From Collinsella sp. An2 (GTDB lineage Bacteria; Actinomycetota; Coriobacteriia; Coriobacteriales; Coriobacteriaceae), in the NCBI RefSeq assembly GCF_002160065.1, contig NZ_NFJW01000005.1, positions 62,001 to 126,000 on the forward strand: a DNA stretch of 64,000 nucleotides, read 5' to 3'. This document shows, piece by piece, positions 4,031 through 28,401 of this stretch (its first letter is position 1; every line of letters starts with the position of its first letter). The notes beneath the pieces were generated by a model, which had not been told where the DNA came from, did not search any database, and was given only the letters and a program-made list of their open reading frames with translations. The position numbers and the translations under genes are program-made.

Positions 4031-4200
4031 CGTGCTCTCCTTTCGTCTCCGCCCACGAGGGCGAATTTCTCCGCGTTTTATTCTAGGTTACGGACCCAGC
4101 GCAAACTGGGCCAAAATGGGCGTACCAGCAGGGAGGCCAGCTACCGCGGGCGGTGTCTCCCGGACGCAAAGACCACCCAGGCAGCAGGAGGAACGACCCC

Positions 4201-5136
4201 CTACAGCTCCGTGATCTGGATGGCGCCGCAGACCTCGTCCCAGCGGTCCATGACCAAATGTCCCGTCTGCGGGTCCATGGCGTTGAGCTTGCCGCAGGTG
4301 TTGCCGCACCGCAAGACCTCGTCGTCATCGGCGCCGCGCGCGATGGCGTGGGCGAAGCCAGCGATGGTGGAGTCGCCGGAGCCCGTGGCGTTCACCGCGG
4401 GAATGGGCGGCGTCACCACGCGATACCCCTTCTTGTCATGGAAGGCCACGGCACCCGCGCCGCCCATGGTCACCACGACCCAGGGAATGCCGGCAAACCG
4501 CTCGTCAGCGGCAAGGGCGGCCTTGAGCGCTGGCAGATCGTCGGGCGTAAAGGAAGTCCCCAGAAGCCCGTTGATCTCCGTGAGGTTGGGCTTGATGAGC
4601 GTCGGCTTGACCTCCGCCTCAAGCGCGGCGTCGAGTGCGGCACCCGAGGTGTCAAGCAGCACGGACTTGCCCGCCGCAGCCGCCGTCCTCACCATGCCGA
4701 CGTAGCAATCCGCGGGCACGCCCTTCGGCAGGCTGCCCGAGATGGTCACGCAGTCAGCATCCGCCACAAGCTCGGTGTAGTTCGCCAAAAACACCTCGAG
4801 CTCTTCGGGCGCGACAGTGGGGCCACTCTCCAGAAGCTCGGTCTGCTTCCCGTCGTGCAGCAGCGCCACACAGGTGCGCGACTCCCCCGCAATGGGCGTG
4901 AACCGATGCGGAATATGGTCGTCGTCCATCAGGTTTCCCAGGTAGGCACCTGCATGTCCGCCCAGCAGGCCCGTCGCCAGCACGTCGTCGCCCAGCTGCA
5001 CGAGCACGCGCGAGACGTTGAGCCCCTTGCCGCCCGCCGTCTTTTTGGGCGTCACGCGGTTCACGTCATCGATGACCAGATGATCGATTGCATACGCCGT
5101 ATCGATCGACGGGTTCATAGTGACGGTGAGAATCAT
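4201..5136 (-). CDS. PfkB-family sugar-phosphate kinase (tagatose-6-phosphate kinase / 1-phosphofructokinase type)
   Basis: ATP-dependent phosphorylation of a ketose phosphate. The 311-residue protein starts MILTVTMNPSID, the hallmark of the LacC/FruK branch, then KTAGGKGLNVSRVL (substrate loop, residues 32-45), VTMGGAGAVAF, and GSGDSTIAGF near residue 254 with the catalytic Asp. GAGGAGG lies before the ATG; the open frame extends far upstream but overlaps nagA and has no family similarity there. In this locus it would make tagatose-1,6-bisphosphate for the neighbouring aldolase. LacC and FruK cannot be separated by eye, so the substrate is inferred from context. Confidence 0.9.
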   Translation of the reverse strand: MILTVTMNPSIDTAYAIDHLVIDDVNRVTPKKTAGGKGLNVSRVLVQLGDDVLATGLLGGHAGAYLGNLMDDDHIPHRFTPIAGESRTCVALLHDGKQTELLESGPTVAPEELEVFLANYTELVADADCVTISGSLPKGVPADCYVGMVRTAAAAGKSVLLDTSGAALDAALEAEVKPTLIKPNLTEINGLLGTSFTPDDLPALKAALAADERFAGIPWVVVTMGGAGAVAFHDKKGYRVVTPPIPAVNATGSGDSTIAGFAHAIARGADDDEVLRCGNTCGKLNAMDPQTGHLVMDRWDEVCGAIQITEL

Positions 5137-5210: not shown

Positions 5211-6383
5211 CTAGGCCTCGATGAGCGCGCCACCCACGAAGGTCGCGGCGAGCGTCATGTCGGCATTGAAGATGGTCATGTCCGCCTTGCGGCCGGGCTT
5301 GATGGAACCAAAGCGGCCGTCGACGCGGGCAGAGCGGGCGGGAATCTCGGTTGCCATGCGAATGGCCTGCTCGGCCGTGACGATCTGCCAGTCCACCATG
5401 TTCTTCACGCCGCGGGCGAGCGTGAGCACCGAGCCCGCGATGCTGCCCGTGGTGCCGTCCTCGTTCTTGAGGTAGCACAGGCCGTCCTTCATGACGACGG
5501 GAAGCCCGCCCGAGACGTAGTCGCCCTCGGGCATGCCGCCGCAGATGAGGCAGTCGGTGATGAGGACGCAGTGCTGCCAGCCCTTGGCGTCCACGAGCGC
5601 CTTGATAGCGCCCGGCACCACGTGCTTGCCGTCGCAGATGATCTCGGCGTAGGTCTCCGGCGTGGTCATGGCGGCACCGGTCACGCCTGGGTCGCGATGG
5701 TGCAGGCCGCGCTGGCCGTTGTAGGTGTGCACGAAGCAGCTCGCGCCGGCGTTCACCGCGGCAAGAGCCTCGTCGTAATGGGCATCGGAGTGGCCGATCG
5801 CGGTCACGACGCCGCGGGCATCGAGCGCGGCGCAGTACTCGCACGCACCCGGCTTCTCGGCGGCAAGGGCGCTTTTCACAATGCGGCCGCCCGCCTGTTT
5901 CTGCCAGCCGTCGAAGACCTCGACGTCCGGGTCGATGAGGTAGGCCGGGTTCTGCGCGCCCACGTGCGCCGTCGTGAAGAACGGACCCTCCAGGAAGATA
6001 CCCGCGATGCGTGCGCCCGGGAAATCGTCGGGTCGATGCTCGTCGGCCTCGGCGATGGCTGCGCAGGCGCGGCCGATGTTCTCGACGGACTCGGTGAAGG
6101 TGGTGGGAATCCACGCCGTCGTGCCACGCTTGGCAAGCGCGATGCTCGAGTCGTCGATGCTCGCCGGGTCGCAGTCGGTCGTGGCATGGTTGTGGAAGCC
6201 ATGGATATGCGTATCCACCAGACCCGGTCCGACGATGCAGCCGGTGTAGTCCTTGATCTCGACGCCCTCAGGGGCCTCGGCAGACCAGCTGCCAAAGACG
6301 TCGTCCACAACGGTAAGGTAACCGCCCTGCATGGTGGCACCAGGCAACACGAAACGGTCGGCCTTGATAGCAAACGTACTCAT
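5211..6383 (-). CDS. N-acetyl-hexosamine-6-phosphate deacetylase (NagA/AgaA family)
   Basis: Removes acetate from GlcNAc-6-P or GalNAc-6-P in the cytoplasm. The 390-residue amidohydrolase has GPGLVDTHIHGFHNHATTD near residue 55 (metal-binding HxH), FLEGPFF, VTAIGHSDAHYDEALAAV, HTYNGQRGLHHRDPG and LITDCLICGGMPEGDY. The ATG at 6383 has GGGAGG. It is followed 74 bp later by the PfkB kinase. Being grouped with an AgaS-type gene and a mannose-family PTS, GalNAc-6-phosphate (AgaA role) is the likelier substrate; GlcNAc-6-phosphate is the alternative. Confidence 0.93.
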   Translation of the reverse strand: MSTFAIKADRFVLPGATMQGGYLTVVDDVFGSWSAEAPEGVEIKDYTGCIVGPGLVDTHIHGFHNHATTDCDPASIDDSSIALAKRGTTAWIPTTFTESVENIGRACAAIAEADEHRPDDFPGARIAGIFLEGPFFTTAHVGAQNPAYLIDPDVEVFDGWQKQAGGRIVKSALAAEKPGACEYCAALDARGVVTAIGHSDAHYDEALAAVNAGASCFVHTYNGQRGLHHRDPGVTGAAMTTPETYAEIICDGKHVVPGAIKALVDAKGWQHCVLITDCLICGGMPEGDYVSGGLPVVMKDGLCYLKNEDGTTGSIAGSVLTLARGVKNMVDWQIVTAEQAIRMATEIPARSARVDGRFGSIKPGRKADMTIFNADMTLAATFVGGALIEA

Positions 6384-13117: not shown

Positions 13118-13287
13118 AATTGCGCACACTTAGCGAAAGTTACGTGCGCCAAACGCGAGTTGCGTGCGGCAGACGAAAATTACGTGCGTGATTCGGTCAT
13201 TTGAGTCCCCATTTGGAGGTGACTTTGGCCGAAATCCTCTATCAACTTCTGAAGAGCGCACGCAACTGCGCCGCTCGGAACGCAATT
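13118..13287. repeat. 20-nt-period motif array with central hairpin
   Basis: An 11-nt motif recurs at exactly 20-nt steps: AATTGCGCACA (13118), AGTTACGTGCG (13138), AGTTGCGTGCG (13158), AATTACGTGCG (13178). A stem-forming segment follows (GATTCGGTCATTTGAGTCCCC... to ...GGCCGAAATC, 13190-13234), then the motif in reverse complement, again 20 nt apart: CGCACGCAACT (13257) and GGAACGCAATT (13277). A related array is at 28311-28401. It lies between the tRNA and the end of the YhcH-family gene; no gene is visible in 12985-13396. Confidence 0.85.
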
Positions 13288-21638: not shown

Positions 21639-22202
21639 GGCCGCCGCCCTCCCTCGCCCACCTATGCGGACGTGCATCGCCTTGCAACTGTTGTACAAGA
21701 CCCCCCGGACACCGATTGGCACCGGAGGGTCTACTTTTGTGAACCCCTCGTCTGACCTGGTCTTTGACCCCACACCTGCGCACTGGGACGTTTGCTGCTG
21801 CCGCCGCGGCGACATCACGACTAGCCCGCTCGCCCGCGGGGCGGAATTGCCCTCAAGTAGACGGACGGTGCGACTTACCTCTAGGACGCGCCATGATCGC
21901 GTTCGCGCGCACGCGAACGCTTACGTGGGTCCCTTTGACCGCGTCTGTCATGGACTAGGGCGCGCGCCATGCGCGCCGGCAACCACAGCACGGGGGGATG
22001 CGCAGAAAAGTATAGCAGTTCACAGGCACGATTGAGCGCCGCCCGGCATGTGATGAAATGGAAACAGACACCCCGAGCGACAGACCCCCTAGGCGCATGT
22101 CGAGCTCGTATGGGCACGGCGGCGCGCGGTGTCGCTTGCCGCCGGCGGTTGGCTGTCGGGACGTCTCATGGACGGCCCCGCCCTGTGCGGCGAGCGCTCC
22201 GG
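21639..22202. other. 564-bp intergenic region upstream of the solute-binding lipoprotein gene
   Basis: No supported gene. It holds a perfect inverted repeat GCGTTCGCG-CGCA-CGCGAACGC (21899-21920) and, near the comF end, ordinary GC-rich sequence. The lipoprotein promoter should be near 21640-21760 but I see no clear consensus. Confidence 0.5.
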
Positions 22203-26776: not shown

Positions 26777-26877
26777 AAGTTCGGGGCGCCTGCAGAAAGT
26801 TTCCGCACCGAGAGTCCAAATCACCCCCGTTTTTCGAGATTTTTTGGACTCTCGGGGCCGTAACTTCTGCGAGGCAC
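26777..26877. repeat. Direct repeat copy A (about 100 bp, with internal hairpin)
   Basis: Nearly identical (about 97 percent by eye) to 28233-28333, in the same orientation. Contains the inverted repeat GAGAGTCCAAA (26810-26820) / TTTGGACTCTC (26843-26853), extended outward by GCAGAAAGTTTCCGC / GCCGTAACTTCTGC. The two copies flank the gene at 26902-27882. Confidence 0.9.
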
Positions 26878-26901: not shown

Positions 26902-27882
26902 TTACGACCTCAAGGGAACGCCGGCCTGAAACAGCAGGCGAAAGAGATAGGCTTCATCAGTCGCCTGCGTAAAGGAGGCCCTCAGCACCGTGGCTCCGGT
27001 CAGATTGATATGAGACTCGCGCAAGCGCTCCTCCGACATGCGCCGAGCGACCTCTCGCACGTCTTGCGCATCAGACCGTCCTCTGCCCGCATAGTACTTT
27101 CCCAGACCATCGAGCTCCAGGATGATGACCCTCCCATCTAGAAGGCACCAATAGTAGTCGACGTTTCGAGGAGCTCCCGGCCTCATAGGATCGTCGACCT
27201 CGACCTGAAGCTCGGGAATCACAAACCCAAGTTCTATGATGATCGCCCGCACAATGGACTCACCGCCGTTTTCGCTTCTTCCGTCCATGTAGCGCGCCAC
27301 CATACGAGCCGCATCAATCCCATGCCTGCCTTTCCCGCGATGCTCGACATATGCTCGAAATCGCTCGGGAGTAACAAGCTTCCAATGAAGCGCCGCGTCA
27401 CAAACTGCCAATCCGTGGCGAAACCCACCGTGACAGGCGCAGTCGAGCATCGTACGTTCTATGGAGGTCGCCTTGACTCCCCGCATAACGACGGGCGTAT
27501 CGTCGGTAACGCATTGGCATTGCACCAGCCCCCGCATGCGCCGCTTGTGGCCGTTTGGCCCAATGCCCACGGTAAGAGGCAGCAGCTGGGAGTTTGGCAC
27601 ATCAAGCCCCCAGGCCAGCGCGGCAGAAAACGAGCAGAACGTCCAATCGGGGTGAAGGAACGCGGCGGTACGCAGTACATGCAGGGCAAACTCACGCTTC
27701 GAAAGGTGTTGCCGATAGTCTCGGTATGCATACATGCCAAAGTAGGGAGAGACAAGCTCGCCTCGTTCGACGCGTCGGTCCAGCGCCTTTCGTTCGTTGG
27801 ACGATGAAGCCACTGCAAATCTGCCCTGCCGCTGCGCCGCCAACAGCTTATGTCTGAGTTCCAACGTTTTGCCGCGCCACAT
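26902..27882 (-). CDS. AbiEi-like N-terminal domain with DUF559/PD-(D/E)XK-like C-terminus
   Basis: A 326-residue protein whose N-terminal half looks like AbiEi-type regulators (ERKALDRRVERGELVSPYFG, TFCSFSAALAWGLDVPNSQ, SIERTMLDCACHGGF) and whose C-terminal half has VDYYWCLLDGRVIILELDG, followed by MSEERLRES and a hydrophobic strand, similar to DUF559/Vsr-type nuclease cores found in actinobacterial proteins. Function unknown; it might be an antitoxin-like regulator or a defence protein. It has no partner toxin gene adjacent. It is framed by 100-bp direct repeats at 26777-26877 and 28233-28333, which suggests insertion or repeat-mediated rearrangement. Confidence 0.75.
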   Translation of the reverse strand: MWRGKTLELRHKLLAAQRQGRFAVASSSNERKALDRRVERGELVSPYFGMYAYRDYRQHLSKREFALHVLRTAAFLHPDWTFCSFSAALAWGLDVPNSQLLPLTVGIGPNGHKRRMRGLVQCQCVTDDTPVVMRGVKATSIERTMLDCACHGGFRHGLAVCDAALHWKLVTPERFRAYVEHRGKGRHGIDAARMVARYMDGRSENGGESIVRAIIIELGFVIPELQVEVDDPMRPGAPRNVDYYWCLLDGRVIILELDGLGKYYAGRGRSDAQDVREVARRMSEERLRESHINLTGATVLRASFTQATDEAYLFRLLFQAGVPLRS

Positions 27883-28232: not shown

Positions 28233-28333
28233 AAGTTCGGGGCGTCTGCAGAAAGTTTCCGCACCGAGAGTCCAAATCACCCCCGTTTTTCGAGAATTTT
28301 TGGACTCTCAGGGCCGTAACTTCTGCGAGATGC
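28233..28333. repeat. Direct repeat copy B (about 100 bp, with internal hairpin)
   Basis: Second copy of the repeat at 26777-26877; only scattered substitutions (for example C/T near position 11, T/A in the loop, G/A after the right arm). Its right end runs directly into the 20-nt-period array at 28311-28401. Confidence 0.9.
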
Positions 28334-28401
28334 ACGTAACTCGGAAATGCCACACGCAACCAGGAACAACCGTACGCAACTTGAGAGCGGAGCACGTAAC
28401 T
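28311..28401. repeat. 20-nt-period motif array (five units)
   Basis: Units lie exactly 20 nt apart: GGGCCGTAACT (28311), TGCACGTAACT (28331), CACACGCAACC (28351), CGTACGCAACT (28371), AGCACGTAACT (28391); on the minus strand these read AGTTACGTGC-like, as at 13118-13188. The hairpin of direct repeat B follows on the minus strand, then one unit in opposite orientation (AGTTTCCGCAC, 28254). It lies just beyond the topA terminator. Confidence 0.85.

Follow-up and report, generated by a model that had tools for sequence, protein, structure and literature searches.

Phased arrays in the window

The window is a 64,000-nt stretch of a 2.54-Mb draft genome (G000), taken from contig 42 (bases 62001-126000). 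At 13118-13287, with tRNA-Thr as the upstream neighbour, lies the arrangement that an earlier note had described: four forward units, a core and two inverted units, all at an exact 20-nt step. The arrays face inward, which upholds the composite palindrome of that description, and the setting is intergenic, as is true of the whole family introduced below, no member of which substantially overlaps a predicted gene (gene calls stem from a GC-frame heuristic, not from a standard gene finder). The "same design" claimed for 28254-28401 was borne out in part: this locus has the core and an inverted 20-bp array, but it is one-sided, its left array consisting of one decayed unit. The features are as follows.

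13119..13187, plus strand: left array of e01, four 9-bp units at 13119, 13139, 13159 and 13179 with an exact 20-bp step; the unit at 13119, ATTGCGCAC, has one mismatch to RTTRCGTRC
13195..13230, no strand: 36-bp core of e01, GGTC...GGCC
13236..13248, minus strand: variant inner unit of e01, AAGTTGATAGAGG, on the 20-bp lattice of e01; the class is described from 30 elements
13258..13286, minus strand: right array of e01, two inverted units at 13258 and 13278 (the latter with one mismatch)
about 26800..26872, no strand: third element, truncated and absent from the earlier note, with a 36-bp core at 26814-26849 and one inner unit per side
28255..28269, plus strand: decayed left inner unit of e02, GTT 15 bp from the core, an offset as in the sister species G001
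28270..28305, no strand: 36-bp core of e02, GTCC...GGAC
28312..28400, minus strand: right array of e02, inner unit GGCCGTAAC at 28312 (two mismatches to the motif), then inverted units at 28332, 28352, 28372 and 28392

The core of the third element is almost identical to that of e02, and together these two copies flank the gene at 26902-27882. In both of them, at 26.8 kb and 28.3 kb, an inner unit of the G001 type, GTTACGGCC, stands at 15 bp.

About thirty copies of one element

The 10-mer on its own is no more frequent in the window than expected (25 found, 24.75 expected); it is the ordered arrangement that is enriched. Genome-wide, exact RTTRCGTGC pairs with a start-to-start distance of 20 bp number 33, as compared to 0 in the backward-read control, and RTTRCGTRC pairs at 20 bp with at most one mismatch occur 114 times (reversed control: 0). 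We catalogued 30 intergenic elements in G000, e01-e30, ranging from about 90 to 300 bp, so the copies are not confined to the two loci from which the earlier note had set out. Some members are weak—degenerate copies are e18 and e26, e19 came to light through its likeness to e09, and an insertion interrupts e11—and the catalogue is a lower bound, because the truncated copy in the window turned up later as a 31st. The G000 chromosome carries about thirty copies of one non-coding element, hitherto undescribed. Searches by motif letters (among the matches listed), Coriobacteria extragenic palindromes, Collinsella miniature inverted repeats and phased palindromic arrays found no published description, subscription papers being mostly outside their scope; the matches to the motif letters and to Coriobacteria palindromes were, judged by title, on other subjects. 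Likewise, Rfam at gathering score returned three matches in four sources (the window, L041, L050 and L055), none of them at an element, so the elements in these sources do not qualify as a known structured RNA, and the statement that no named element has this form stands. Elsewhere in the window, at 21743-21998 on the minus strand, there is a raiA RNA (RF03072; 143 bits, gathering score 101).

The spacing is rigid. Across the 30 elements, same-strand motif pairs with at most one mismatch number 121 at 20 bp, with one each at 19 and 21 bp. Of 128 distances of up to 130 bp from a forward start to an inverted start, 109 equal 59, 79, 99 or 119 (a 20k-1 lattice), and the off-lattice convergent distances are mostly 77/78, 97/98 and 117/118, that is, the lattice shifted by one or two bases. 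One lattice runs through the core and joins the forward and inverted arrays; divergent motif pairs number 0 in the 30 elements. Each element comprises two opposed arrays of 9-bp units and 11-bp spacers, left and right being of unequal length. The consensus of 205 units reads aRTTRCGTRC(s)C and has, at position +15, one isolated pyrimidine; information amounts to 1-1.8 bits per position in the motif, as compared to mostly <0.6 in the spacer. The core measures 36 bp in 27 of the 30 elements (e08 has 34 bp, that of e19 is shorter and that of e11 interrupted) and has the ends GKCC...GGMC; in many copies, the variant unit AAGTTGATAGAGG fills one lattice position beside it. Spacing is thus far more conserved than the sequence between sites, as would be expected from a repeating lattice of protein on the DNA. 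Phased sites every two turns on both sides of the core suggest a putative protein that would assemble along one face of the duplex; that a protein could bind in this manner had been proposed before, and the exact two-turn step of the 20-bp pairs upholds the proposal.

Hairpin or double-stranded lattice

The hairpin reported earlier fared less evenly. A stem is present in the window copies e01 and e02 (single-strand DNA folding gives z = -1.4 at 13186-13250 and z = -4.5 at 28262-28310, respectively), but its pairing is not conserved across the family. Among 26 distinct cores, the outer CC/GG positions are paired in 24-26, but scarcely vary, and interior columns are paired in 10-17, near shuffled columns, with a few somewhat higher. 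For the R-Y positions of 58 rank-matched left/right units, we counted 103 Watson-Crick combinations (108.1 after shuffling) and 30 A-C mismatches (27.2); with left and right units not covarying, RNA pairing between the arms is not supported. Since pairing is mostly not maintained, the arms do not covary and the arrays are unequal, a double-stranded nucleoprotein array is a better fit than an RNA or a cruciform, and the element is better described as a putative double-stranded protein-binding lattice with a dyad centre.

Relatives and taxonomic spread

Neither G001 nor G002, both of the same genus, has exact 20-bp pairs. Yet, a position weight matrix of the 36-bp core, built from G000 cores alone, picked out four sites when run over 560 kb of G001; they score 23.6-27.6 bits, as compared to 12.6 for the next-best match there and up to 11.0 for reversed sequence. 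The four G001 elements carry GTTGYGTGC-like arrays with steps of 20-22 bp, mostly 21; in 8 of 8 arms, a distance of 15 bp separates the core from the start of the inner unit. Two of these elements sit on either side of the gene that is orthologous, in G001, to that at 26902-27882. With elements around the orthologous gene in both genomes, the family is probably older than the G000/G001 split, and its 20-bp form seems to have expanded later, in G000.

G002 has TGCARAAYGGMCG-type sites that recur at 31 bp (8 pairs, as compared to one at 30 and one at 61 bp). Opposed sites, set at 39 bp, enclose a 36-bp core. The two best cores score 18.4 and 20.9 bits; their homology is probable, not proven, because a coding match reaches 16.1 in the same scan. 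A relationship between this 31-bp element and the G000 family is probable, and the gap orthologous to e05 holds one G002 element.

The spacing is conserved in the sister species G001, although not identical (20-22 bp, mostly 21). No 20-bp arrays were found in the other 394 genomes of the order (395 in total; G134 and G147 have one isolated pair each), in a search that demanded exact 20-bp spacing and missed the G001 family later found by the core matrix. In other genera, the core matrix gave nothing above 9.2 bits in 16 stretches (~306 kb, five genomes), a sample too small to exclude presence. A three-copy pattern run over all named genomes matched six loci in other phyla, which we rejected as one-orientation tandem minisatellites with no visible core or inverted partner (one is partly N-masked). 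Viral contigs yielded 11 matches to a two-copy pattern, each of them a single pair. Inverted repeats of any kind occupy 4 of 9 orthologous gaps in relatives and 3 of 17 control gaps (p 0.19), a count restricted to gaps meeting distance rules, with e03-e07, e13, e14 and e27, among others, outside it; positional conservation at this level is suggestive only.

Copying and placement

How do the copies relate to one another? Elements e03 and e04 lie 7.6 kb from each other and share 88% identity over the exact array-core-array span, their flanks being unrelated, and e12, e20, e22, e25 and e27 are mostly 75-86% alike at unrelated sites. Shared flank extends beyond the arrays in e09/e19, e06/e07 and e13/e14. 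The pairs e03/e04 and e13/e14 have one exact 20-nt array indel each. Such alignments show that whole elements have been copied to new sites and that 20-bp units are gained or lost. In seven similar pairs, fixed motif positions changed in 18 of 234 cases and all others in 157 of 1099 (p 0.005), the three R positions changing freely (18/117); the pairs are not independent (e12 and e20 recur), and marking units by motif match biases the test. The e13/e14 pair shows no constraint (9/72 and 22/197, respectively). Post-copy constraint on motif positions thus appears modest. We found neither a target-site duplication nor a fixed terminus: ends vary with unit number, and intergenic divergence blocks exact empty-site alignment. 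As regards a related autonomous element, the array pairs among the matches listed lie in the small elements. The likeness of related elements may also reflect homogenisation by gene conversion, not transposition.

Genes flanking the elements are oriented ++ in 15 cases, -- in 8, +- in 6 and -+ in one. Divergent gaps accordingly host one of the 30 elements, as compared to 20 divergent ones among the 92 remaining gaps that measure 150 bp or more (p 0.024). Besides tRNA-Thr at e01, upstream neighbours include tmRNA (e08) and tRNA-Met (e19).

A second phased family and other repeats

G000 harbours a second composite family, in which GGTCRAT...CTGGGCA sites recur at 52 bp and have inverted partners, also at 52 bp. 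Its plan is like that of the 20-bp family, with five turns replacing two. In the G000 sequence examined, GGTCRAT pairs number 14 at 52 and 7 at 104 bp, with singles at other lags; G001 and G002 have a few pairs of this family, at 51 bp. The core loop of e11 houses one copy as an insertion. Copies lie at:

L044, 5712-6030
L052, 888-1204
L043, about 4059-4300
L053, 13490-13760
L053, 15471-15760

General helical quantisation of repeat lags was not seen across all intergenic DNA; after inspection, only 20 and 52 bp in G000 and 31 bp in G002 stand out.

Further inverted repeats populate these genomes. In G000, a ~200-bp element with GTTTTGTACGAC arms (L054 6213-6411, L055 6978-7176, L058 about 5752-5871) adjoins e24 and e25 and lies near e29. 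G001 has a 121-145-bp family, ATTTGTTGCAGTTT...AAACTGCAACAAAT (L060, L077-L083), with eight exact copies, one of them in the gap orthologous to e01. G002 has 51-bp palindromes, AACATGCA-N4-TTTACGTT (L061, L084-L091), whose N4 varies between copies and is usually complementary between the arms; one occupies the gap orthologous to e01 in that genome. A repeated ~170-bp inverted-repeat element with arms like AAGTTATGAAGCCCGTTTTCAGCGAAT in G003, from another genus (L160-L162), indicates that such families are widespread in the clade.

Interpretation

What might such an element be? Most likely, judging from sequence, these are miniature DNA elements, trans-mobilised or otherwise copied, that are bound by a putative oligomeric protein. 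That they form a dispersed non-coding platform for a host-encoded oligomerising DNA-binding protein, spread by whole-element copying, is a proposition we hold to be evenly balanced. The 36-bp dyad core would be the seat of a dimer or larger protein unit, from which further protomers would extend outward over the flanking 9-bp sites; because each step is two turns, at 20 bp as at 21, all protomers would lie on one helical face. Core and arrays would be copied as a whole into further intergenic sites, a trans-acting transposase or recombinase being the most likely agent—REPIN- or MITE-like behaviour—with array length changing through gain or loss of 20-bp units. Binding might be cooperative, a single protein might both move and use the element, and neighbouring genes could be affected. 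We identified no candidate binding protein.

Elements are retained at two orthologous positions in G001, which argues that movement is not the whole story. They could instead be host-maintained chromosomal sites, such as domain boundaries or insulators between transcription units, at which a nucleoprotein filament forms on the phased array and copying is secondary. The lattice that stays rigid despite strongly diverged spacers, the two elements kept around one gene in both species and the near-absence from divergent gaps speak for this; however, gaps orthologous to e17, e25 and e29 in G001 or G002 are without an element, whole-element copies sit in unrelated flanks, and the excess of inverted repeats in orthologous gaps is not significant, all of which leaves it doubtful. 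Direct-copy pairs might also act as recombination seams that let accessory operons enter and leave like cassettes. A PTS/GH1/GH5 operon (L045 6431-12892) lies between the direct copies e13 and e14 and is absent between the corresponding two genes in G001 and G002; e03 and e04 flank a PTS/amidohydrolase segment absent from that place in G001; and a Fic/DOC gene (L041 10075-11977) lies between the near-identical direct copies e06 and e07, its enclosing segment being absent there in G001 and G002. Yet, synteny breaks at element gaps in 17 of 26 informative comparisons and at control gaps in 29 of 58 (p 0.24), and a dnaX-ybaB segment in G002 is flanked by other repeats, so that we consider seams unlikely.

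Two readings appear weaker still. Genus members encode a single-copy, divergent Y1_Tnp homologue (RAYT-like), one in each of G000, G001 and G002, which could move the elements as REP/REPIN sequences; their intergenic, palindromic and dispersed nature and their position 3' of genes would agree with that. REP/REPIN sequences are reported to bear, at one of their ends, a GTAG or CGTC tag that stays unpaired (PMC3733652). No such tag is seen here, CGKCC standing at both core ends within the symmetric part; no element array lies within about 1.5 kb of the Y1_Tnp genes, whose loci are flanked by other, GGGGACGTGTTC-like inverted repeats in G001 and G002 and by no array in G000; and hairpin pairing is unconserved. 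A RAYT as the mover is therefore very unlikely. The element might, alternatively, act as RNA, transcribed as a long imperfect hairpin that serves as terminator, small RNA or source of double-stranded RNA. The location downstream of genes would suit this, as would perfect, long core hairpins, which occur in only a few copies (e20, e25) and for which the double-stranded lattice offers no explanation. Against it stand the missing covariation, the unequal arrays and the near-shuffled core interior described above, as well as a simple terminator scan with hits within 350 bp of only 6 of the 30 elements, making an RNA role very unlikely as well.

Returning to a protein lattice on duplex DNA, a bolder version is conceivable, which we put forward tentatively: a new class of chromosomal nucleoprotein element, in which the conserved 36-bp dyad core would load a putative protein that polymerises outward on one face, the step being a whole number of turns, fixed per family and differing between families and species. 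The steps are 20 bp in G000, mostly 21 in G001, 31 in G002, 52 in the second G000 family and 51 in relatives. Binder and lattice would have co-evolved, and retained copies would be sites of chromosome architecture or insulation. If the lattice reading is true, the DNA predicts the repeat length of the putative protein assembly, and sister species with other steps offer a natural series for the evolution of binding-site phasing.

Comparison with known systems

The elements are reminiscent of REP, BIME and REPIN sequences in being dispersed, intergenic, inverted-repeat, non-coding, lineage-specific and copied within the genome; the 30 intergenic copies with inward-facing arms amount to dispersed extragenic palindromes in inverted-doublet form. 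In contrast to these, they have long phased arrays of 9-bp sites and a fixed, duplex-like 36-bp core, and the stem-loop is not kept across copies. Size range and copies in unrelated flanks recall bacterial MITEs, but neither a defined terminal inverted repeat nor a target duplication was found, and the ends shift with unit number. Short units, 11-bp spacers and two opposed arrays set them apart from CRISPR arrays.

ParR-type plasmid centromeres and iterons consist of direct repeats, spaced by roughly two turns of the helix, to which an oligomeric protein binds. Unlike these, the present elements are chromosomal and dispersed, with inverted arrays around a core, and no partition or replication genes adjoin them among the flanking genes examined, which are partly annotated. 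Ends of Tn7-like and Mu-like transposons consist of inverted arrays of multiple transposase sites; here, by contrast, the arrays meet at a 36-bp core, enclose no cargo, and no transposase was found. The comparison suggests that intergenic repeats in this genus are built on principles outside the definitions of REP or MITE.
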